Both the position numbers and the translations under genes were made by a program. Below the pieces are notes generated by a model that did no database searches, had not been told where the DNA came from, and was given only the letters and a program-made list of their open reading frames with translations. A DNA stretch of 64,000 bases from a virus. Shown piece after piece: positions 20,180 through 33,928 of the stretch. Every line of letters starts with the position of its first letter. Within the stretch, counting starts at the first letter, position 1. The stretch covers positions 1 to 64,000 of the IMG/VR virus record IMGVR_UViG_3300020810_001156; one strand, given 5' to 3'.

Positions 20180-22900
20180 TTAGAATCTATAAGTTAAACT
20201 TGCGTTCCAAGTTCTACCAAATCCGAACCATACTGAGTTTCTAACATCAACACCATTCCATGTAGTTGAACTAGCATCTGCATGAATGTTAGAGTTAGAT
20301 TCTGCAATATAAACAGCATCGAATAAGTTGTTGATATTAGCTCTCGCAGTAAATTTACCAAACTTACCAGTCAATCCTAAATCAACTAAACCATACGATG
20401 GTAATTTCATCGCACCTAAGTTATCAGGTTGTGTAAACTCCGAATCAGTAATAGAGTAGTCAGCGTATAATCCATCTACAAATCTATAATCTACATCAAC
20501 ATTAAATCTTTTACCTAACTTCTGGTCTACTCCTAAAACAGCTACGAATTGTGCAGCATCACCAACTTTAGCATCTTTAAGGTAAAGAGTACCTGTTCCG
20601 ATTGATTGTTGGTTATCATCAAATAATTCTGCTTCGAAATCTTTAGTATATCTCCAATCACCGATTGATAACATACCTCTGAATCTCGTTGCGTTTGATA
20701 ATTGATACTTACCTTCAAATTCGATACCATTATGTACTACATCGATATCTCTGAATTGTGCAAATCCATCTACACCTTGTTGGTTAGATAAACTTCTACT
20801 AACAAATCTATTACCCCAAGTTGTTGTGTAAGCGTTAATGTTAAACGATACATCTGAACCAATAAAACCATAACCCAATTCAAATGAACGAATTTCTTCG
20901 TTTTGTAAATCTGGATTAATTTCATTAGCAAAGTTAGGGAATACTGCATCAAACTGAGGTTGTCTTGAAATTACACCTGCGTTAAAGAACACATTTGATT
21001 TCTCATCGATATTGTAGTTAGCACCACCCTTTACATATCCACCACCTTGGTTTTGAACATCTGATTCTGGGTTACCTGGTTGGTCAAAATAATCGATTCT
21101 TTGGAATGCTTGGTTAGATAAACCTGCTTGTACTACTGCAGTTAATTTATCTCCCTGATATTCTACTAAACCATTAAGACCTTGCCATCCAACTTTACCA
21201 ACATTGTAGTAATCAATCTTCGGACCGTTTAGACCTGTATTCTGAAAAGGATTTGCTTCAACTAAAGTATTGATGATTTGACCGTTAGAGTTTTTGTTAC
21301 CCGTTGAGTAATAACCATCTAATCCCATTAAATCATTAAGAACTCTATAATGATAACCAGTATAGCTTCTTAAATCAACACCAATAGATGTTTTGAATTT
21401 ACCAAATTGTCCTTCTAAGTTTGAGATACCACCAACCCAGTTGTGTGAGTTCATAGATGCTCTTCTTACCAATACTGTTCTATTTACATTAGAATCTCTG
21501 AATCCATTCGAACCAATAAGTTGTCCTTGGAATGCTGAGATATCACCTGTATATCCTTCAGTAGTTGATTGGTTAGCTGCAACGATTGCATCGAAATCGA
21601 TGAATCCATTTGCATCTCTTGAACCTCTACCATTTTCTAAGTAGTGTTCTGTAAGGTCTTTTCTGAAAGGTAAGATATCAGTTGCAGCTGCACGATAGTT
21701 GTTACCACGAGGACCTGTACCACCACCTCTACCAGCAGAACCATATAATGATGTTGCTAATTTAAGGTTATCTGAAATGTTCCAATCCCAGTTGAAAGTT
21801 GCTAATGGTTTGTTGTAGAAGTTTCTTCTTAAAGAATACTCTTCTCCATTTAGTGTACCACCATTAGAATTCCATCTCTGGTCAATTCCTTCTTCACCAA
21901 AGTTTTGGTAATCTCTAATAGATACCCAAACATCTCTTTGATGGTGCCATTGACCTGCACCTAAGAATGAAAAGTTCAATTCATGGTCTGAACCTTCCGG
22001 TGCGTAACCAACTGCAGCGAAGTAAGTCCATCCTTCACCTGAAGTGTTGTAAACATATCCGTTACCAGCCCACTTAGATAATAAGAAAGATGATGCCCAT
22101 CCTTTATCATTCTTACCTGTGTTGTAAGAAACTCCTGTTTTGGTGTATCCATCGTTACCAACCATTTGAATTACTTTACCACCTTCAGTTTTCTGTGCGG
22201 CTTTAGTAAAAATGGAAACAGTTCCCCCAACTGAAGGAACTGCCAACTTAGATGCACCTAAACCTCTTTGGATTTGGATACCTGATGCTACATCGGTTAA
22301 ACCTTGCCAGTTACTCCAATATACCCATCCGTTCTCCATATCGTTAACGGGTTGTCCGTTAATAAGGAAAGATGTATTTCTTTGGTCAAATCCTCTAAGA
22401 GAGATTCTTGAATCACCATAACCACCACCTTGTTTAGTAGCATAAACCCCTGGAGTTTTATTCATAATTTCAGGGAATTCTTGGTTACCAACCTTTAGAG
22501 AAATCTCAGCTGGTGATATCGATGATACCGCTACTGGAGTTTCTCTTACTTTTGCTACATCAATTACCCCTGATGTAACCACCACTTCAGCTAACTGATT
22601 TAATGCAGTTGGTAAATTTACAATCATATCGTTCACAGCAACAACCTCAGTTGTTTGGAAACCAATAAAAGAAATTACTAAAGTGTTACCAGCGGATGCC
22701 CCAGAAATAGAAAAGAGACCATCAAAATCGGTTGTTGTACCATTTTGGGTCCCTTTGATTACTACCGTTGCGCCTGGTAGGGGTTCATTCGTTTCTGCAT
22801 CTACCACTGTTCCAGTGATTTGTGCGAAACCGGTCATTGAGGTGAAAACCATCAATAACCCAATCAAAAATTGCTTCATAATTGCTTGATTTTTGTTCAT
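20180..22900 (-). CDS. TonB-dependent outer-membrane receptor (SusC/CirA-like)
   Basis: 906 residues, complete. Signal peptide about residues 1-26 (an alternative start at Met8). A carboxypeptidase-D-like beta-sandwich follows (ITGTVVDAETNEPLPGATVVI), then a TonB-box/plug region (EVVVTSGVIDVAKVRETPVAVSSIS ... ISLRGFDQRNTSFLINGQPV ... GGTVSIFTKAA). A long 22-strand-type barrel ends in the canonical C-terminal Phe (SLTYRF). Bacteroidota use such proteins for TonB-driven uptake. It is the only minus-strand gene. It has its own phage-type promoter (23004-23035) and shared terminator, so it behaves as an inserted single-gene unit. Confidence 0.92.
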   Translation of the reverse strand: MNKNQAIMKQFLIGLLMVFTSMTGFAQITGTVVDAETNEPLPGATVVIKGTQNGTTTDFDGLFSISGASAGNTLVISFIGFQTTEVVAVNDMIVNLPTALNQLAEVVVTSGVIDVAKVRETPVAVSSISPAEISLKVGNQEFPEIMNKTPGVYATKQGGGYGDSRISLRGFDQRNTSFLINGQPVNDMENGWVYWSNWQGLTDVASGIQIQRGLGASKLAVPSVGGTVSIFTKAAQKTEGGKVIQMVGNDGYTKTGVSYNTGKNDKGWASSFLLSKWAGNGYVYNTSGEGWTYFAAVGYAPEGSDHELNFSFLGAGQWHHQRDVWVSIRDYQNFGEEGIDQRWNSNGGTLNGEEYSLRRNFYNKPLATFNWDWNISDNLKLATSLYGSAGRGGGTGPRGNNYRAAATDILPFRKDLTEHYLENGRGSRDANGFIDFDAIVAANQSTTEGYTGDISAFQGQLIGSNGFRDSNVNRTVLVRRASMNSHNWVGGISNLEGQFGKFKTSIGVDLRSYTGYHYRVLNDLMGLDGYYSTGNKNSNGQIINTLVEANPFQNTGLNGPKIDYYNVGKVGWQGLNGLVEYQGDKLTAVVQAGLSNQAFQRIDYFDQPGNPESDVQNQGGGYVKGGANYNIDEKSNVFFNAGVISRQPQFDAVFPNFANEINPDLQNEEIRSFELGYGFIGSDVSFNINAYTTTWGNRFVSRSLSNQQGVDGFAQFRDIDVVHNGIEFEGKYQLSNATRFRGMLSIGDWRYTKDFEAELFDDNQQSIGTGTLYLKDAKVGDAAQFVAVLGVDQKLGKRFNVDVDYRFVDGLYADYSITDSEFTQPDNLGAMKLPSYGLVDLGLTGKFGKFTARANINNLFDAVYIAESNSNIHADASSTTWNGVDVRNSVWFGFGRTWNASLTYRF

Positions 22901-24547: not shown

Positions 24548-24695
24548 ACAAATACTCATTGTATAGTATCTAATACTCAACGAGTATAATCGTTATCTCA
24601 ATTAAGTTTATCGGAGGGTTCTCCTCTGGTGTTTTATAAATCGTTTTATTATTAAGTTATACAATTGGTTACTTTAACTATAAAGTAGGCATTTT

Positions 24696-25175
24696 ATGTA
24701 TGCGTTAAGATTTTTAGGAATTGTTTTATTCTTAATATTGGGTGTATCAAGTATATCCGCACAAGAAATAAAGGTAGGAGATGTTACAAACGAAATCCGA
24801 TTAGGACCTTTCGCTGGTAATGCAAATCTTGCTATGGGAGTTCGTAATATTACCGAAGAACTTCTTATGGATTTGGATTACGATTTATCCCCATACGCAG
24901 AAACACAAATTAATATAAGACTTGTATTCTTTGATGTAAAGAATATTGGTAAGAGTATTGGTGTATATCATAATAAGGTATCAGCAACTCAAATCATTGC
25001 AATAGGAGAATTACAAGTTGGTAAGAAAGTAAAGAAACGAGTTACTAAAAAAGGAGTGAGTAAAGAAATATCTAACTCCACTTTGGTGGTAGCATCAGAT
25101 GGTTCGTTTAATCAACAAACGGCATCAAGTGCTGTAAAAAAGGTTTTAGTAGAAATAATTAAAGATTTATTATGA
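24696..25175 (+). CDS. small exported protein at head of CsgG-like cluster
   Basis: 159 residues. Signal peptide MYALRFLGIVLFLILGVSSISAQ with cleavage after Ala-Gln-like residues typical of Bacteroidota. The mature part is an alpha/beta domain of about 135 residues (VRNITEELLMDLDY ... NIRLVFFDVKN ... QIIAIGELQVGKKVKK). Its position recalls an accessory factor such as CsgE, but I cannot show sequence homology. It overlaps the next gene by 4 nt. Confidence 0.6.
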   Translation: MYALRFLGIVLFLILGVSSISAQEIKVGDVTNEIRLGPFAGNANLAMGVRNITEELLMDLDYDLSPYAETQINIRLVFFDVKNIGKSIGVYHNKVSATQIIAIGELQVGKKVKKRVTKKGVSKEISNSTLVVASDGSFNQQTASSAVKKVLVEIIKDLL

Positions 25176-26848
25176 AAAAAATTTTAACATTATTAGTTAG
25201 TGTATTGTGTACACTAAGTGTCTTTGGACAATCTCGTATGGATTATTCGAGAGTAAATACAGTAACCCAAGTAGGGGATACTTTAATTGTAAAATATCAA
25301 TACTTTAAAGGAACTGATGTTAATGGTAATGATATGCCAGATGCGACACTTTATCAGTTTGATATACAACATAACAATAAGTTATTGGATGTTATTGAAA
25401 ATGATTGGCAACCAACATCTAACTCTTCACAAAAAGCAGTAAACACTTGGAATGGATATAAGTTTACTATTGATTCTGAAAAAGACCAAACTGATTTTGA
25501 TGGGCAATATCTAAGTTGGTTAAGTGGAGATGCTACCTATGGAACAAATGCTGATTGGTCAGTACAAAGGGTAACTTATCAAGATGTAACTTCATTGGAA
25601 AATGGTGATGAGATTATGAAGGTATCTTATAAGATTAAAGATAAGGCAAATTCAAACTATACTGATTATACTAATTTAATCAATGTGAATTGGGCAAACT
25701 ATAAAGAAGCAGATGGTACTCAGATTGATGTAACTGGTCAATCTAATATAGGGTTAACAGGTATTCAAGGTGGTGATGCTGGTAATGTTTCTATTTCAGT
25801 ATCATCGAATGTAATCACAAATAATATTGGTGATGGTGGTGATTTCTCTTATACAATTTATAACAAAGGTGAAAATACTAATCCAATAGCAAGTGGTAAC
25901 TTTGATGCTGCTGGTGATGCAACTGTAACTGGTTTGGAAAATGATGTTGAGTATGATTTATATGTTTCAATTGATTCATCTAAAGAGTATTTAGATAATG
26001 TAGTAACTGTATCTGATTTATCATTGGTGTTTGCAGAAGCAATAGGAGCAGGCGATTCTCCAAATGGTATTTCAACTACATTTGATTATTACATTCAAAG
26101 TATTTTAGCGAATGTTGTAGGTACTTCTATTCCAAATGGTGGTGATATAAACTTTGATGATTCGTATGAGATACTTGCTTATCTACAAGGTGTAACATCT
26201 ACCAATACAACATTCATTTCAAAAACAGGTGAAGTGTATAATGTAAGTGGTATCAAATCTACTTTTGGTGATGAAGTAAATGGTATAGCAACCGTTTCAC
26301 CAACATTCAAACCAACTGATAGTGATAAATCGTTCCAATTTGCTCATGCAATTTCTGGTGATGTAAACTTCTCACATGGATTTGAACCAACATCAACTAA
26401 TGCGGATATACCAACCTCAGCACAATCAACTACTACTCAAAGAAGTATGATGGCAAGGGGTGCAAAACTTAATCCTGAAACTGCTAATTTAGATTTAACA
26501 TCTGAATTAAAAGATGGTCAAGTAATCTTCACAATAGGTTCGGAGGTTGAGGAAATGATTGGTGCTCAGTTTAACATTGTTTACGATAGAACGAGATTAG
26601 TATTAGATGATGTAATATTTGATACTGGTAATACAATGACCAACTTCTCAAATCACATTGAAGAAAATGGAAAAATAAATATAGGTTCTTTTGACCAAAA
26701 CTTTGAGGCAACTGTTAAGACAGGTACTCCTTATAAGTTAATCTTTACACCAACCGTACAGTTACAAAACACATCAGGTTTAATTACTTTCAAAGTTAAT
26801 GAAGGTGTTAAAGCAGATGGTACACAAATTAAATTTATAATGGAGTAA
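25172..26848 (+). CDS. secreted cohesin-like adhesin, 558 aa
   Basis: Signal peptide MKKILTLLVSVLCTLSVFGQ. The mature protein is acidic and rich in Asn/Asp/Thr, beta-sandwich-like throughout. The C-terminal about 110 residues (AQFNIVYDRTRLVLDDVIF ... GKINIGSFDQN ... LITFKVNEG) follow the cohesin-type fold pattern. A preceding dockerin-like stretch (GGDINFDDSYEILAYLQGV) may bind calcium. It shares its C-terminal half, including SGDVNFSHG.. versus IGDVNLSHS.. and the AQSTTTQRSMMARG-like linker, with the protein at 30890, so the two are paralogues. Likely exported to the cell surface. Confidence 0.65.
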   Translation: MKKILTLLVSVLCTLSVFGQSRMDYSRVNTVTQVGDTLIVKYQYFKGTDVNGNDMPDATLYQFDIQHNNKLLDVIENDWQPTSNSSQKAVNTWNGYKFTIDSEKDQTDFDGQYLSWLSGDATYGTNADWSVQRVTYQDVTSLENGDEIMKVSYKIKDKANSNYTDYTNLINVNWANYKEADGTQIDVTGQSNIGLTGIQGGDAGNVSISVSSNVITNNIGDGGDFSYTIYNKGENTNPIASGNFDAAGDATVTGLENDVEYDLYVSIDSSKEYLDNVVTVSDLSLVFAEAIGAGDSPNGISTTFDYYIQSILANVVGTSIPNGGDINFDDSYEILAYLQGVTSTNTTFISKTGEVYNVSGIKSTFGDEVNGIATVSPTFKPTDSDKSFQFAHAISGDVNFSHGFEPTSTNADIPTSAQSTTTQRSMMARGAKLNPETANLDLTSELKDGQVIFTIGSEVEEMIGAQFNIVYDRTRLVLDDVIFDTGNTMTNFSNHIEENGKINIGSFDQNFEATVKTGTPYKLIFTPTVQLQNTSGLITFKVNEGVKADGTQIKFIME

Positions 26849-26850
26849 AT

Positions 26851-27228
26851 ATGAAAAAAGTATTAGTATTATTATCTTTGGTTTTATTAATGGGATGTGT
26901 TAAGGATGAAATCCTTTCTCCTATTGATAATACAGTAGAGGTTCCTGAATCATTGGTTATTGGTGATTTACAAGGTATTAAAGTAGAATCAACAATCGTA
27001 ACCGATGAAGTTAAGATGAATATCAAACTTCCTTATACGGGAACTTATAGAGTTAAAATTAGAGATATAGGAAAAGAACTTATATCTCAAGAAAAGTTAC
27101 AAGCAAACGAAGGAGATAATATTCTTAAAGTATATGTTTCTTCTTTATCAAACGATGGTTATACTTTAGAGTTGACCGATGATAATCACGATATCATAGG
27201 TATAACTTCAATCGTAGTAAACAACTAA
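26851..27228 (+). CDS. lipoprotein, 125 aa
   Basis: MKKVLVLLSLVLLMGCVKDE has a clear lipobox (LMGC, Cys16). The mature domain is beta-rich (VESTIVTDEVKMNIKLPYTG ... YRVKIRDIGKELIS). It follows the cohesin-like gene by 2 nt. The same order, adhesin then lipoprotein, recurs at 30890-33258, so each lipoprotein may chaperone or anchor the adhesin before it. Confidence 0.7.
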   Translation: MKKVLVLLSLVLLMGCVKDEILSPIDNTVEVPESLVIGDLQGIKVESTIVTDEVKMNIKLPYTGTYRVKIRDIGKELISQEKLQANEGDNILKVYVSSLSNDGYTLELTDDNHDIIGITSIVVNN

Positions 27229-27238
27229 ATATAAAATT

Positions 27239-27541
27239 ATGAGTGAAGAAAAAGAAGTAGGGTTCTTCGGACAATTGAAAAATCAAATCATAACTGGTGC
27301 AGGGGTTATCCTAACTGGTTTGGGTACAATGTTTATGGATGAAGTAAAAACATTCATTGGTATTGGAGATGAAGAAGAAACCAAAACAGAACAAGTTCAA
27401 GTTGAACAAAAGCAAGAGGTCAATGTAAGTGGACCTGAAATCATTATCAATATTCCTGAACAAAAAACAGAAACTAAAACAATTATTAAAGAAGTTCCTG
27501 TTAAAGAAAAGAAGGAAAAAGAAGAAGAAATAGATTGGTAA
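27239..27541 (+). CDS. membrane-associated charged protein, 100 aa
   Basis: A hydrophobic segment (QIITGAGVILTGLGTMFM, about residues 16-33) is followed by a Glu/Lys/Val-rich tail (KTETKTIIKEVPVKEKKEK). The tail resembles an extended periplasm-spanning rod. Role unknown. Confidence 0.55.
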   Translation: MSEEKEVGFFGQLKNQIITGAGVILTGLGTMFMDEVKTFIGIGDEEETKTEQVQVEQKQEVNVSGPEIIINIPEQKTETKTIIKEVPVKEKKEKEEEIDW

Positions 27542-27570
27542 TAAGTTATATATTGTTAATATTAAATTAA

Positions 27571-27807
27571 ATGATTATGTTAAAATTCTTTAGAAATTTT
27601 TGGGAACTAAACACTATGCCGATGGTGGATATGTGGAATGATGCCGAAACTGTTAATGAAAAAATAGTAGCAGTATTTTTTAGCATTTGGATTGCTATAT
27701 TGTTGGTATTGTTTTATGTAGGAATGACGGGATTATTATACGGATTAATATCAGGAGAAGCAGATGTAGCAAATGCAACATTTGGTATCTTTGATTATTG
27801 TTGTTAA
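27571..27807 (+). CDS. single-pass membrane protein, 78 aa
   Basis: One long hydrophobic stretch (IVAVFFSIWIAILLVLFYVGMTGLLYGLI, about residues 32-60). A second ATG at 27577 is an alternative start. Belongs to the exported-protein cluster by position. Confidence 0.6.
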   Translation: MIMLKFFRNFWELNTMPMVDMWNDAETVNEKIVAVFFSIWIAILLVLFYVGMTGLLYGLISGEADVANATFGIFDYCC

Positions 27808-27809
27808 TT

Positions 27810-27911
27810 ATGAAAAAAATAATTGATATATTGAGTAAGATTGATAGTTGGGTATATAATCAACTATTAAATTTATACCCTAATCTTACAAAACATATGA
27901 GGGAAAAATAA
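27810..27911 (+). CDS. small peptide, 33 aa
   Basis: MKKIIDILSKIDSWVYNQLL... is amphipathic. It lies 2 nt after the previous stop and its stop overlaps the next ATG by 1 nt, supporting that it is translated. Function unknown. Confidence 0.45.
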   Translation: MKKIIDILSKIDSWVYNQLLNLYPNLTKHMREK

Positions 27912-28009
27912 TGGGATTATTAGATGTGTTTATAATAACATCTGCAATCGTTATAGGTATGTCCGTTGTAATCGGACAATTAATGAAAATATTTGATAAG
28001 GAAGAATAA
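27911..28009 (+). CDS. single-pass membrane peptide, 32 aa
   Basis: MGLLDVFIITSAIVIGMSVV... is one transmembrane helix with a short charged end. It is linked by 1-nt overlaps to both neighbours, including the CsgG-like gene. Confidence 0.5.
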   Translation: MGLLDVFIITSAIVIGMSVVIGQLMKIFDKEE

Positions 28010-28725
28010 TGAAAAAATTATTACTATTGTTGGTATGTGTATTTTTAACACAAACCACATTTGCGCAAGTTGGAAGTATTAAAGCAGAAGAATATGTTGC
28101 TGAATTCGAAAAGAAAAAATCAATTGATGATGTTTCGGATTATGATGGTGATATGTTGCCTGTTGCACTACTCGATGTAGGTATCTCAGATGCTCTCTAC
28201 GAAACTTATCCTGAATTAAGGGATGGTAGAGTGGGTTTAGGACTTACAAACATTGTAATCGAATATTTGGATTGGACAAATAGATTTGAATTTGTTGAAG
28301 AAAAATCTGCAATCAAAGATAGAATGAAATCACAATGGGTTGCTTCTCGTAAAGGTGTATCTGAAAATAAAGTTTATGGTATGGGTAAGATTACTCTTGC
28401 TGAATACTTTGTAACTATTGAGATATACGATTTCTCAGTATCGGAAGATGAAGTACTTTCACTTAAAGAAGGTTCTAAACAAACTCAAACAACTCGTTTA
28501 GGATTACAAGTAAGATTTACCGATGCTGAAACTGGTAGATACTTGGTAGGTTCTGGTTTAGGAGATGCTAAGACTGTTAAAACTCAAGAAGGTTTAATTG
28601 GTTTAGATGTAGATGAAATCGCATTTAGAGAATCAGGTATCGGAGTTGCAACTCGTAAAGCATTAGAAACAGCTTCAGCAAGAATTGTGGCAAGAATGAT
28701 ACGAAAAGGAATCTTCCCAAACTAA
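28009..28725 (+). CDS. CsgG-like curli-type secretion pore protein
   Basis: 238 residues with signal peptide MKKLLLLLVCVFLTQTTFAQ (no lipobox Cys, unlike classical CsgG). GLGLTNIVIEYLDWTNRFEFVEEKSAI matches the CsgG early core (..l...g.F.vvER). Then come GMGKITLAEYFVTIEIYDFSV, LGLQVRFTDAETGRYLVGSGLGDA (the D..TGe strand) and a helix-rich end with TRKALETASARIVARM. CsgG forms a nonameric outer-membrane channel that exports curli subunits. Here it would serve the secreted proteins coded around it. Confidence 0.65.
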   Translation: MKKLLLLLVCVFLTQTTFAQVGSIKAEEYVAEFEKKKSIDDVSDYDGDMLPVALLDVGISDALYETYPELRDGRVGLGLTNIVIEYLDWTNRFEFVEEKSAIKDRMKSQWVASRKGVSENKVYGMGKITLAEYFVTIEIYDFSVSEDEVLSLKEGSKQTQTTRLGLQVRFTDAETGRYLVGSGLGDAKTVKTQEGLIGLDVDEIAFRESGIGVATRKALETASARIVARMIRKGIFPN

Positions 28726-28728
28726 TGG

Positions 28729-30339
28729 ATGAAAAAACTACTATCGATACTATTTTTTATATTCGTAACACAAGTTAGTTACGGACAGACATTTACACAA
28801 ACCTTTGTAGATAGATGTACTGGTGAAGTACAAGTAGTAACTGCCAACTTTCAAACGGGTTCGGCAGTTGTTTCATTTTATAATAAAGTTAGAGTATTTA
28901 CATATCAAGAATATGTAAACGGAGAATTACACCAATGGTTGATGACTACTTATGCTTGGTGGCAAGCACTCTCCCCATGTTCAGCTGCACAAACTCAAAC
29001 TACCAACGCACAAAACGCAGCGAATAACGCCACAAATAACACTACAAACACAACCAATACAAATACCTCATCAACTAGCAACACATCTTCATCAAGTAGT
29101 AGTTCATCATCAAGTTCGTCTGGAGGGGATTCTGGTAGTTCATCTTCAAGTTCGTCAGGTGGTTCAGACGGTGGTGGTGATGGAAGTAGTTCATCAGGTG
29201 GTTCAGAAGGTAGTGGAGAAGGTAGTGGAGAAGGTAGTGGAGAAGGTTCTGGCGAAGGAAGTGGAGAAGGTAGTGGAGAAGGTAGTGGAGAAGGTGAAGG
29301 TTCTGGTGAAGGTTCCGGTGAAGGTGAAGGTGAAGGAGAAGGTAGTGGAGAGGGTGAAGGTGAAGGAGAAGGTTCTGGTGAAGGAGAAGGAGAAGGTTCT
29401 GGTGAAGGTGAAGGAGAAGGTGAAGAAGAGTCATCTGAAGAAAGTTCAGAGGAAGAATCAAGTGAAGAGGAATCATCAGAAGAATCGGAAGAAGAAAGTT
29501 CAGAAGAAGAATCCGAAGAAGAGAGTGAGGAGGAATCAGAAGAAGAAGAGAGTGAAGAAGAATCTGAGGAAGATGAGGAAGAATCTGATGAGGATGATGA
29601 AGAAGAATCCGAAGAAAGTGATGGTGAAGATGAAGAAGATGAGGAAGATGAAAAGGAAAAAAAGTTTATGCCTATTCAATTAAAGGCGGATATGATGGCT
29701 CAACAAGCTCTTACTTTGGATTATAATGCGGTTCTTAATATCGGTGCTTCTATGAGTTCTATTTTTGGTGATAGAAGTTATGGTGCTAATCTTATGATAT
29801 ATGATAATCTTAAACAAGCAAACATTTCACTTAACACATCAGGTGTTACTATGAATGATAATTACGAAGTAACATGGGTAGATGGTGTTTCGGTTTCTTA
29901 TATGAGAAACTATAAGATGAATGCTATATCAGCATCAGCAAGTAGAATGAAACCATTAGGTAAGTGGGGAACTGTTGGTGTGGGTATTAACTATTCTTAT
30001 ATGACGGGTAAAGACCAATTAGGGCAACAACTTCCTAAGTCTTGGATGTTAGGATATAATGTTGTTTATTCTAATATGATAAAAATAACTGATAGAATAA
30101 TGTATTCACCAGCATTGGTTGGAGTTAGTTCTCCATTATCATATACACAAATGCAAGAAACTGATATTGTAGATTTTTCTACAATCAATAAAGATTTAAT
30201 GGTTATAGTAGCAAACCCATTCACAATACAATTAACTAATAGATTTTCGTTCAATGTAGGGTGGACAGTTATAATGAGTACGAGTGAATATCTACCGATA
30301 TTAAACTCGTTTATGATAGGTTCTAAAATACCATTTTAA
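28729..30339 (+). CDS. outer-membrane barrel-like protein with Ser/Gly/Glu low-complexity linker
   Basis: 536 residues. Signal peptide [20 protein letters not shown], then a small N-terminal domain with two Cys (about residues 21-85). A spacer of Asn/Thr, then Ser/Gly, then GSGEGSGEG and finally [10 protein letters not shown] repeats (about residues 90-310, very acidic) follows. The last about 220 residues alternate like a beta-barrel ([11 protein letters not shown] ... [12 protein letters not shown] ... [14 protein letters not shown]) and end in Phe. The repeat length probably varies between strains. Follows CsgG-like gene by 3 nt. Confidence 0.65.
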
Positions 30340-30341
30340 TT

Positions 30342-30890
30342 ATGAATAAAAAAATAGAAATTTCTGTATGGTTACTTTGTTTATTAGTAATCGGATTTTG
30401 GTTTATTGGATATACTACACAATACCAAAGACCAGCTAAAATAGAATATGTAGAAGTAGTAAAAGAAGTAGAAGTAGTTGTTACTGATACAATCTATGTA
30501 GATAAAATCATAGAAGAAAAAATATATGTACCAAAATACATTACACAAATCGAAAGAGATACAATTAAAGTAGAAGTACCAGTAGAAGTAATTGTTGAAA
30601 AACAAATACCAATTACTAAAAAAGTATATGTGGATAAAGTAGTAGATAGACTTGTTGAAGTTCCCGTCAACGAGAAAAAACTATTTTTAGGGTTTGGTTA
30701 TCAATACGATTTTGAAAATTATTTTAGTGGAGCAAATATAAAGTTAATTCACAAAACACCTAAAGATAAAATGTTTAGTTTAGATGTTGGTTTCAGAAAT
30801 GATTTGTTAGATAAAGAAACTAATGTAGGAAGATTAAGACCTTACATTGGAGGTTCTATATATTTTAGAATTGATAATCCAAACAAATAG
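30342..30890 (+). CDS. membrane-anchored rod plus beta domain, 182 aa
   Basis: One N-terminal membrane helix (about residues 8-24) is followed by about 80 residues of repeating VEVVKEVEV / VDKIIEEKIYVPKY / VEVPVEVIVEK units that should form an extended rod. The C-terminal 65 residues look like an outer-membrane strand set (LFLGFGYQYDFENYF ... YIGGSIYFRID). It could bridge inner and outer membranes, as spanins do, or belong to the export complex. Confidence 0.55.
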   Translation: MNKKIEISVWLLCLLVIGFWFIGYTTQYQRPAKIEYVEVVKEVEVVVTDTIYVDKIIEEKIYVPKYITQIERDTIKVEVPVEVIVEKQIPITKKVYVDKVVDRLVEVPVNEKKLFLGFGYQYDFENYFSGANIKLIHKTPKDKMFSLDVGFRNDLLDKETNVGRLRPYIGGSIYFRIDNPNK

Positions 30891-32920
30891 TGAAAAAACT
30901 TCTTTACATATTATTATTTTTACCCACTTTAGTTTTTGGACAAAGTGGTGAAGGATATGTAAATTACAAATCCTATAAAACTCACTATGGGAATGGTTAT
31001 AGTTCAACCTATAATGGATACACATATAGTGGATTAGCTGATAACGCAACCGAGTTACAAGCAATGTTAGATGTAAATCACCCTGGTACATCTTTAACAC
31101 ATGAAGGTGAAGCAGTAGCTAATTCAAGTGAAGGATTAAAAGGAGGTAGACCTTCCAGATGGGGGAATGATTTTTATGCCGTTTATCACTATGGTTGGTT
31201 TCAACCACAAGAAACAGGAACTTACAGATTTACCCTACAATCAGATGATGGTAGTGGTTTATGGATAGATGGAGACTTAAAACTATTTAGACCTTGTTGT
31301 GGTGCATCCTCTGTGGATGTTTCCTTAACATCAGGACAATGGTACTTCTTTGAAACAAAATGGCAAGAATATACAGGTGGTGATTATATGTACTTTATGT
31401 ACTCACCTCCAAGTAATGCTAATGTGTTTTATGTTGGTGACCAAACACAGTATCTTAAAGTAACTAATATAGAACCAGAAGAAGAACCAATAAGTCCTGA
31501 AGTAGATTTAGATTTAGAATTCCATTCTCAATTAGCACCAGAAGAATATAGATTCAGAGTTTACTATGATGGAACTTCTGCACAAGATGGAACTGAATGG
31601 TTGAATACATCTACAATGAACTCTTCTTATTATTTAGATGATGATGGTAGTAAGGATATTACTGATTATCTAAATTTAGTCAAAATGGCAGATGGTAAGA
31701 AGGCAACTACAACTGGTGGTTGGACGGAGTGGTGTGTGGTTTATGATTATGATACAACTAACAAACGATACAGGGTTGGTATTGATAAAAGAGAATTTCC
31801 AAGTGGATTTACTTTTACTGATTTGAAACAATTAAAGTTGTTTGATTTATGGGATGGTGAAATAACTTATATGTCAGATGATATCTATTGGGCAAATTAT
31901 TACATCTATACTGATACTCAATTTGATTTCACAAGTTCAACCTTTTCATCTTATATAAGAGATGCAAATGGATTCTATGGAATAAAAGCAGATTTCTCAT
32001 TTGAAGATGTTGAAATATACAAAGGACATAAAGTATCATTTATGAATCCATCTACCAATATAGAAGGATGGACAGCAGAAGAATTTATGGATGATTATAT
32101 TACAGTTGCAGATGTAGTTGCAGGATTTAACGAATTAGCTGGTGGTGGAATTAATGGTGGATTAAAAGGAGATTTGAATGGAGTCCAATTACAAAACTCA
32201 GATGTTAACCAAGATGGTGAATTTGATTTTCAAGATAGTCAAATAGGATTATCTTTTTTGACTGGTGGTGATACTCCGTTTGATGGAAGTTTATATGATA
32301 TAATGAGAATAGTTCCTAAATCAGAATATGATAATACTACAACTACTAATTGGAAAACACAAACAAATAAATCACCATCAACATCGTTTACGTTTAGTCT
32401 TATAGATACGATACAAACTTTAGAGTATAAGGTTTCTTTTATAGGTGATGTAAACCTTTCACATTCTGCTCCCCAAACAGGTACTTCACCCGCTACCCAA
32501 TCTACTATATCTTCAAGAATGATGAGTGTAAGAAATTCATCTACTCAAAACAATACTTCGTTAGAGGTTGATTTAGATATTGAAAAAACTGAAGAACATA
32601 TAATCATTACATTAGATTTGCCTGAGAATAATTTTAATCTAATTGGTTCTGAATTTAGAATTGGGTTTGATAATGAACGAGTAGAATATGATAAGTTAGA
32701 AACTAATACAATGATGAATAGCTTTGATGCTAAGAGGAGTTCTTATGTTAAGGTGGGTTCTATATCAACTGATGGTTCTCTAACCTTAAACAGCGGCGTT
32801 CAATATAAAATTTATTTTAAACCAATACAATCATTTGAATCAACATTAGGATTGGTATCGGTTAAGAAATCAGAAGTTGTTGATGTAAATGCTAATATAA
32901 TAAATGTAATTATAAAATGA
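30890..32920 (+). CDS. secreted PA14 / dockerin / cohesin-like adhesin, 676 aa
   Basis: GTG start overlapping the previous stop. Signal peptide KKLLYILLFLPTLVFGQ. An N-terminal PA14 domain (about residues 50-180) shows GWFQPQETGTYRFTLQSDDGSGLWIDG, a carbohydrate-binding fold of adhesins and toxins. The middle holds a dockerin-like calcium segment (DVNQDGEFDFQDSQIGLSFL). The C-terminal cohesin-like domain (GSEFRIGFDNERVEYDKLE ... VGSISTDGSLTLN) is shared with 25172. Probably displayed on or released from the infected cell, or attached to virions; the signal peptide favours export. Confidence 0.7.
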   Translation: MKKLLYILLFLPTLVFGQSGEGYVNYKSYKTHYGNGYSSTYNGYTYSGLADNATELQAMLDVNHPGTSLTHEGEAVANSSEGLKGGRPSRWGNDFYAVYHYGWFQPQETGTYRFTLQSDDGSGLWIDGDLKLFRPCCGASSVDVSLTSGQWYFFETKWQEYTGGDYMYFMYSPPSNANVFYVGDQTQYLKVTNIEPEEEPISPEVDLDLEFHSQLAPEEYRFRVYYDGTSAQDGTEWLNTSTMNSSYYLDDDGSKDITDYLNLVKMADGKKATTTGGWTEWCVVYDYDTTNKRYRVGIDKREFPSGFTFTDLKQLKLFDLWDGEITYMSDDIYWANYYIYTDTQFDFTSSTFSSYIRDANGFYGIKADFSFEDVEIYKGHKVSFMNPSTNIEGWTAEEFMDDYITVADVVAGFNELAGGGINGGLKGDLNGVQLQNSDVNQDGEFDFQDSQIGLSFLTGGDTPFDGSLYDIMRIVPKSEYDNTTTTNWKTQTNKSPSTSFTFSLIDTIQTLEYKVSFIGDVNLSHSAPQTGTSPATQSTISSRMMSVRNSSTQNNTSLEVDLDIEKTEEHIIITLDLPENNFNLIGSEFRIGFDNERVEYDKLETNTMMNSFDAKRSSYVKVGSISTDGSLTLNSGVQYKIYFKPIQSFESTLGLVSVKKSEVVDVNANIINVIIK

Positions 32921-33258
32921 GAAAGATATTATTATTTATATTATTAATTTTGGTATCTTGTCAACCTGATGAGTTAATGGTTGTTGAACCATATCCACAA
33001 TACGAAATGATATTTGAGGAATCAATATCTAAAGTGGTTGATGGACAAGAGTTCTCATTTGAGGTATCAACAACTGAAGAATATACGTTGATTATATCAC
33101 ACCAAAATAGTTCAGTAATATCAAAAGAATCATTCATGCCAACAATGGGATTGAATACTAAAATCCTTTATACAAAATCTTTACCTAAAGGAGAATTAAA
33201 CTTAATATTAATTTTATCTAAAGAAGAAATCCAAAAAACTACTATTATTATAGAATAA
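32917..33258 (+). CDS. lipoprotein, 113 aa
   Basis: MRKILLFILLILVSCQPDEL has a lipobox (LVSC, Cys15). The mature part is a small beta domain (EFSFEVSTTEEYTLIISHQN). It overlaps the PA14 gene by 4 nt and mirrors the lipoprotein at 26851 in size and position. Confidence 0.7.
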   Translation: MRKILLFILLILVSCQPDELMVVEPYPQYEMIFEESISKVVDGQEFSFEVSTTEEYTLIISHQNSSVISKESFMPTMGLNTKILYTKSLPKGELNLILILSKEEIQKTTIIIE

Positions 33259-33271: not shown

Positions 33272-33928
33272 ATGTTAGTATATGATTTCAAAAATGTGGG
33301 AAAGATTTATGGATTGACCAATAATGATTCGGTTGAACCAAAACATGCTGACCGTATTGCTGAAATTCCTAAATCTATTTTTTCTGGGTTTAAGTATGAG
33401 AGGTATAAAAATATGCCTCCATATAAAAACGAATCTATGAGAACAATGCAGGAATTAATTAGATTATCACAAATACCATCTAATGATGAATTTACTTTGA
33501 AGATGGATAAAGTGAAAGAATCTTTTAAAAATTTATGTGAAGAATTAGATATTGATTTCCCAAAAGAAATGGTAAAAGATTTAAAAGATGCTGCTAGTGG
33601 TGTGATATTAGATTTAAAATATCACTACAATAGACCGAGGCCTTACAAATTAGCACCTTTACTTAATATAGAATTAGATACTAACGAAATCGAAGATACA
33701 ACATCAGATTCACCATCTTATCCTTCTGGACACGCAGCTCAAGGTATTCTGATATCCAATTATTTAGCTTACAAAAATCCTTTACATAGAGGAAAGATTT
33801 TGAGGTTAGGTAGAGATATAGCAAAGAGTAGAGTTACTGCAAAAGTTCACTATCAATCGGATGTAGATTTTGGTTCAATGATTGGAAACGATATGTTCAA
33901 CTATTTAAAAGAAAACAAATTAATATAA
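33272..33928 (+). CDS. PAP2 / class A acid phosphatase-like enzyme
   Basis: 218 residues with all three PAP2 motifs: LKYHYNRPRP (Lys116, Arg121), YPSGHA (151-155, catalytic His154) and SRVTAKVHYQSD (Arg187, nucleophilic His193, Asp197). No membrane helices or signal peptide, so it should act in the cytoplasm on a soluble phosphate ester. Phosphatases of this kind occur in other large marine phages. It overlaps the next gene by 1 nt. Confidence 0.8.
   Translation: MLVYDFKNVGKIYGLTNNDSVEPKHADRIAEIPKSIFSGFKYERYKNMPPYKNESMRTMQELIRLSQIPSNDEFTLKMDKVKESFKNLCEELDIDFPKEMVKDLKDAASGVILDLKYHYNRPRPYKLAPLLNIELDTNEIEDTTSDSPSYPSGHAAQGILISNYLAYKNPLHRGKILRLGRDIAKSRVTAKVHYQSDVDFGSMIGNDMFNYLKENKLI

Follow-up and report, generated by a model that had tools for sequence, protein, structure and literature searches.

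A phage-encoded gene module of marine Bacteroidota viruses that may coat infected cells with anchored, exchangeable lectins

Background

Phage-encoded T9SS cargo and phage-encoded CsgG were already known, each separately. The closest described relative of the second kind is the curli-like operon of the pelagimyophage HTVC008M (gp014-gp018), and of Melnitz, for which the authors suggested a role in cell capture (PMC7029224, PMC9004378). As in that operon, the module described here contains a phage CsgG-fold protein with a signal peptide, clustered with genes of unknown role. However, the pelagimyophage operon has recognisable CsgG and CsgF proteins and a curlin-like gene and belongs to phages of Pseudomonadota, whereas the present module has no sequence-level relation to it, lacks CsgF and encodes adhesins of the cohesin/dockerin/T9SS type. 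The T9SS cargo of Cryophage carries type A sorting domains, with a PA14 domain in one protein, and is highly variable between strains; our module shares with it the phage-encoded, variable PA14 or sorting-domain proteins, and the available part of that report (PMC7468147) mentions no cohesin scaffold, dockerin lectin, CsgG-fold machine or lipoprotein-split form. Cellulosome scaffolds offer a third comparison, since they too combine an anchored cohesin protein with dockerin-tailed partners and exchangeable functional domains; our module differs in being viral, in having lectin-like cargo instead of glycoside hydrolases and in that its cohesin-dockerin pairing is predicted. Finally, the same module occurs in a cultured phage, immuto (gp013-gp019), in which, unlike in the locus studied here, the sorting domain is still fused to the cohesin and whose annotation reads lectin, cohesin and hypothetical proteins. 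Searches of open-licence papers turned up no account that combines cohesin/dockerin domains, a T9SS-type anchor and a CsgG fold.

Gene content and organisation

The window, that is the whole stretch of DNA analysed, covers the initial 64 kb of a virus record of 252.6 kb. It comes from a large virus that infects marine Bacteroidota, in agreement with the phage origin proposed in an earlier note made from the sequence alone. All the ORFs named in that note were found at their coordinates on the plus strand (Table 1). It had counted eleven consecutive plus-strand genes; strand and positions hold, and the module (24696-33258) comprises 12 ORFs once the 33-aa and 32-aa ORFs (27810, 27912) are included. 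Sec-type signal peptides, formerly put at four, are carried by five products (24696, 25172, 28009 and 28729, called with a hydropathy/lipobox heuristic, and 30890, read from the sequence). The same heuristic recovered the two lipoproteins already proposed (26851 and 32917), which are paralogues of each other. The module had also been placed behind one late-type element, which finds no support: the best conserved upstream motif occurs at chance frequency, and what stands out upstream is a terminator-like hairpin (24609-24631) between a helicase-like gene and the module.

Table 1. Features of the module and of its upstream region (positions in the window; loci counted among 38 dereplicated loci)
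Coordinates	Strand	Feature	Basis or occurrence
24609..24640	+	Terminator-like hairpin	
24696..25175	+	Short paralogue of 28009 (CsgG fold; 159 aa with signal peptide), homologous to its C-terminal half	hhalign, BLAST; related gene in 35/38 loci
25172..26848	+	Adhesin 1, 558 aa: signal peptide, variable N-terminal part, degenerate dockerin (26060-26368), cohesin (26477-26761); no sorting domain	Family HMMs; Pfam on family
26851..27228	+	Lipoprotein partner of adhesin 1; domain (~26998-27225) homologous to T9SS C-terminal sorting domains; C-V-K-D-E after cysteine	hhalign, motif
27239..27541	+	Small membrane protein: hydrophobic segment at the N-terminus, charged tail with a final W	35/38 loci
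27571..27807	+	Small one-pass membrane protein	Part of the clade (8 loci)
27810..27911	+	33-aa ORF	Conserved in close relatives
27912..28010	+	32-aa hydrophobic ORF	
28009..28725	+	Predicted CsgG-fold protein, 238 aa, signal peptide, no lipobox; core gene	AF2, Foldseek; relatives in at least 379 viral contigs
28729..30339	+	Signal peptide, two-Cys N-terminal domain (28786-28983), long Ser/Gly/Glu linker, predicted outer-membrane-barrel-like C-terminal domain (~29644-30336)	Barrel from sequence pattern; relatives in 37/38 loci
30342..30890	+	One-pass membrane protein, repetitive charged stalk, beta-rich C-terminus	
30890..32920	+	Adhesin 2, 676 aa: signal peptide, PA14/GLEYA (31178-31279), dockerin (32150-32455), cohesin (32561-32833); no sorting domain	Pfam, family HMMs
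32917..33258	+	Lipoprotein partner of adhesin 2; C-Q-P-D-E after cysteine; paralogue of 26851, sorting-domain-related family	hhalign, motif

The genes are genuine and conserved, and purifying selection maintains them as proteins: dN/dS ranges from 0.06 to 0.36 over the module genes, with values of 0.06-0.14 for 28009 and 24696 and of 0.33-0.36 for the adhesins. The order of most module genes is retained in seven close viral loci, so that the search for the same arrangement in other phages, which the earlier note had advised, was successful. The count given for 28729 joins two families separated by clustering (F3 and F4) that have the N-terminal domain in common. A protein similar-looking to 30342 is encoded at 93846-94529 of the genome, and both are possible periplasm-spanning pieces.

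Distribution

An alignment search detected relatives of 28009 in at least 379 viral loci, and in all the 38 dereplicated loci a member of the adhesin family lies beside the CsgG-fold gene. In cellular genomes, a scan with chosen peptide patterns found no member of the 28009 family in 84,980 bacterial and archaeal species genomes, and the family HMM gave no match in 396 genomes taken across the Bacteroidota phylum. It gave one match among 398 Flavobacteriales genomes; the contig concerned is 9.2 kb long, phage-like in content, and also encodes a PorV/PorQ-family barrel. Annotated phages yielded relatives in the Flavobacterium phages immuto and in no others. The immuto module (NC_055915, gp013-gp019) encodes a C-type lectin-dockerin protein, a dockerin protein, a cohesin-CTD protein, a small membrane protein, a CsgG-fold protein, a linker protein and a short paralogue. 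Elsewhere in the same genome (49-60 kb; L261), a gene run encoding a glycosyltransferase, a transaminase and an epimerase likely alters surface polysaccharide.

The CsgG-fold protein and its short paralogue

Structure prediction, proposed earlier as a check on 28009, returned a CsgG fold. The AF2 model built from 48 sequences (pLDDT 75, pTM 0.69) superseded one built from six (pLDDT 48), and its first 17 Foldseek matches in the PDB are all CsgG (best E 6.8e-8, probability 1.0), followed by PelC, HpaA, FlgT and LptE; its best viral structural match is a phage CsgG. On the basis of this model we conclude that 28009 has a CsgG fold. The "CsgG-like pore" of the earlier note thus stands as to fold and loses its link to true CsgG at the level of sequence profiles: Pfam CsgG (PF03783) is absent from 28009 and 48 relatives, and from the genome of the window, and the comparison of the 28009 family with pelagiphage CsgG is not significant (hhalign, 7%). 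As the TM-scores against CsgG are about 0.45 (Foldseek) and, of the two transmembrane hairpins from which CsgG builds its 36-strand barrel, the model shows one long hairpin and a short second segment of low confidence, 28009 is at most a putative pore. A hydrophobic-moment and hydropathy profile for membrane hairpins fails to discriminate even in E. coli CsgG. A lipobox, with its N-terminal lipid-anchor cysteine, is lacking in 28009 and was recognised by pattern in 6 of 38 relatives. PDB sequence searches with CsgG-fold, cohesin and lipoprotein queries yielded nothing useful.

The first gene of the module, 24696, is a shortened paralogue of 28009, a relation that the earlier reading had missed. 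The two families align with hhalign (95.5%, E 1.6e-8, the E-value being for one template), and a BLAST link between the two genes exists in locus L061 (E 3e-8).

Domain architecture of the adhesins

Both large proteins had been credited with cohesin-like C-termini, and one of them with PA14 and dockerin-like segments; these assignments are borne out. Pfam Cohesin is recognised in 27 of the 69 members of the adhesin family (E 1.7e-10 in the L050 adhesin), and the family cohesin HMM matches 25172 and 30890 at 2e-24 and 8e-22, respectively. The PA14 domain of 30890 is above the Pfam cut-off (E 1.3e-5). The dockerin family HMM matches 30890 at 7e-21 and also 25172, in a degenerate form, at 2e-8; by alignment, 30890 has the dockerin calcium loop DxNx(D/N) (DVNQDGEFDFQDSQ), and the Pfam dockerin match is weak. 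Together with the signal peptides, these domains support the view that the products are aimed at the host envelope. Across the family, Pfam further recognises Lectin_C in 14 members, Laminin_G_3 in 8, GLEYA in 5 and PA14 in 4.

The family shows a division of labour between cohesin scaffolds and dockerin lectins, which had also escaped the earlier reading. The main adhesin of sister phages consists of an N-domain, a dockerin, a cohesin and a T9SS type A sorting domain, a chain that in immuto is split over gp014 and gp015. Adhesins with a dockerin only (no clear cohesin, no sorting domain) carry it at the extreme C-terminus in 19 of 19 cases, all in fused loci, whereas in split loci the second adhesin always has a cohesin, a dockerin and its own lipoprotein. 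A second cohesin at the N-terminus of the fused scaffold was considered and is not claimed, the HMM matches of this domain being weak and hhalign giving 22.8% over 19 columns. Cohesin and dockerin domains are also known in surface proteins where they do not pair.

Adhesin and lipoprotein are exchanged as a joint cassette while the CsgG-fold gene stays. Between loci L001 and L002, identity is 96% for the CsgG-fold protein and falls to 44% for the cohesin, 29% for the lipoprotein and 23% for the adhesin N-terminus, and a partial Mantel test gave 0.67 (0 of 2000 permutations).

Lipoproteins and the sorting domain of sister phages

Two further points missing from the earlier reading are the T9SS sorting domain of the sister phages and the relation of the lipoproteins to it. 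The sorting domain was recognised in 21 of the 69 adhesin family members, TIGR04183 being over its cut-off in immuto gp015 (E 9e-12) and in L050, L033, L062, L064 and L088; neither TIGR04183 nor PF18962 was found in the window adhesins 25172 and 30890. Profile comparison identifies lipoproteins 26851 and 32917 as homologues of this type A domain, i.e. as its detached relatives: the lipoprotein family aligns with the phage CTDs (hhalign 95.3%, E 2e-8, the E-value again being for one template), whereas eight other families used as negative controls gave E 8e-4 or worse. The single-sequence scores of 26851 and 32917 fall below the curated cut-off (Por_Secre_tail in 26851, E 0.0036), and both lack the PNP motif and the terminal lysine of the phage CTDs, so that a function as sorting signal is not supported for them. 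Within the family, one lipoprotein gives a direct CTD HMM match (E 0.0026) and another a weak TIGR04183 match (E 0.011). The sequence C-x-K-(D/E)2 is a surface lipoprotein export motif in Capnocytophaga, and related motifs are known in other Bacteroidota (PMC5080379). A motif of this kind, C-x-[KR]-[DE]-[DE], follows the cysteine in 12 of 24 lipoproteins; C-V-K-D-E of 26851 fits the Capnocytophaga form exactly and C-Q-P-D-E of 32917 is close.

The 38 dereplicated loci fall into two states that are perfectly exclusive, namely 21 fused loci without a lipoprotein and 17 unfused loci with an adjacent lipoprotein. On the CsgG tree this pattern needs three state changes, hence few events, of which at least two are forced by well-supported branches; the fused locus L088 is nested inside a split clade. 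In our reading, adhesin and anchor probably underwent fission, or else fusion, and this implies that the two work together. A tag for secretion that has been split off as a separate lipoprotein would be an informative natural experiment on T9SS tag function. In 13 loci of the fused clade (e.g. L033, L038, L064), a secreted protein of ~152 aa with a zinc-protease-like HExxH motif is encoded near the module; none was seen in the cluster of the window.

Proposed function and competing interpretations

We lean towards the view that this phage-encoded module coats the infected cell with anchored, exchangeable lectins. Host Sec would export the adhesins after infection, and their N-terminal parts, exchangeable and often carbohydrate-binding (PA14/GLEYA in this phage; in relatives, C-type lectin or laminin-G), would be presented outside. 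In the sister clade, host T9SS would move the cohesin scaffold across the outer membrane and fix it to the surface via the C-terminal sorting domain; lectins that end in a dockerin and have no signal themselves would dock onto its cohesin. Use of T9SS is suggested for these relatives only, because the window adhesins have no recognised T9SS signal; in the clade of the window, the separate lipoprotein probably reaches the surface by a Bacteroidota lipoprotein export signal and anchors the adhesin. Together with its short paralogue, the small membrane protein and the barrel-like protein, the CsgG-fold protein would make up an envelope machine belonging to the module, most likely a gate or assembly ring for adhesins without a sorting domain. 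Since the CsgG-fold gene is present in fused loci too, this machine would not simply replace T9SS. The full version, a cellulosome-like cohesin-dockerin lectin coat built by Bacteroidota phages with a hijacked T9SS signal, turned in one clade into a stand-alone surface lipoprotein, and with a phage-specific CsgG-fold envelope machine, is offered more tentatively, as a possibility somewhat short of probable. If this is true, many aquatic Bacteroidota phages remodel the outside of the infected cell, beyond its metabolism, and exchangeable lectins sit on a common anchor.

As to purpose, we slightly favour a sticky infected cell, attaching to other cells or particles, over a block to superinfection. 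In the latter case, which differs in purpose and not in anatomy, the displayed lectins would mask or bind receptor glycans such that other phages cannot adsorb, a role suggested for the Cryophage T9SS cargo (PMC7468147). The carbohydrate-binding domains and their rapid swapping would fit such competition, but nothing places the lectin targets on the host itself and many loci encode two or more different adhesins per phage, and we regard exclusion as rather unlikely. The purpose of phage-encoded secretion genes is directly testable here, since immuto, a cultured phage of Flavobacterium sp. LMO8, carries the module.

A curli-type secretion system, in which 28009 would be a CsgG nonameric outer-membrane pore exporting the adhesins like curlin, was the earlier interpretation. 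Its phage origin, CsgG fold, envelope-directed adhesins and conserved gene order all stand, and the strict "curli-type export cluster" does not. The fold and the adjacent adhesin genes favour it, and pelagiphages do have csgF-csgG with a curlin-like gene; however, no Pfam or PHROG match to CsgE, CsgF, CsgA or CsgB was found among the module's ten proteins, the sister adhesins bear a T9SS signal, the model shows a single long hairpin, and neither Pfam nor profile comparison ties 28009 to CsgG. Moreover, CsgG passes unfolded small subunits, whereas the adhesins of the module are large and multidomain. Curli-type export is, in our view, improbable.

A lysis aid, by which the CsgG-fold protein would depolarise or open the envelope late in infection, has been proposed for the CsgG of methylophage Melnitz (PMC9004378) and could draw on the several small membrane proteins of the cluster. 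We hold it to be very improbable: the module of immuto lies ~30 kb from the phage's own holin/endolysin genes, which argues against lysis, and the adhesin linkage in 38 of 38 loci would be left unexplained. Decoration of released virions by the module proteins is hardly credible, even if adhesin domains are found on the virions of other phages, because these proteins bear signal peptides, the immuto module is far from the virion genes, and no further protein of genome G000 or of immuto, virion proteins included, has a cohesin or dockerin that could serve as virion anchor.

Neighbouring and distant genes

An intact TonB-dependent receptor gene (906 aa; signal peptide, CarboxypepD_reg-like, Plug and barrel domains) adjoins the module on the minus strand (20180-22900), and its product is 75% identical to a Polaribacter protein. 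Locus L001 has a gene of the same size at the same place, and L021 a 904-aa reading frame. A second, BtuB-like TonB-dependent receptor of 658 aa is encoded at 233072-235048 of the genome (L017:9072-11048), and the gene after it codes for a secreted protein of 388 aa. Directly 3' of the module, a PAP2-family phosphatase gene spans 33272-33928, and a similar gene is present near the module in L260. Finally, three giant ORFs of 4828, 4590 and 3866 aa are located at G000:C1:110811-153682.
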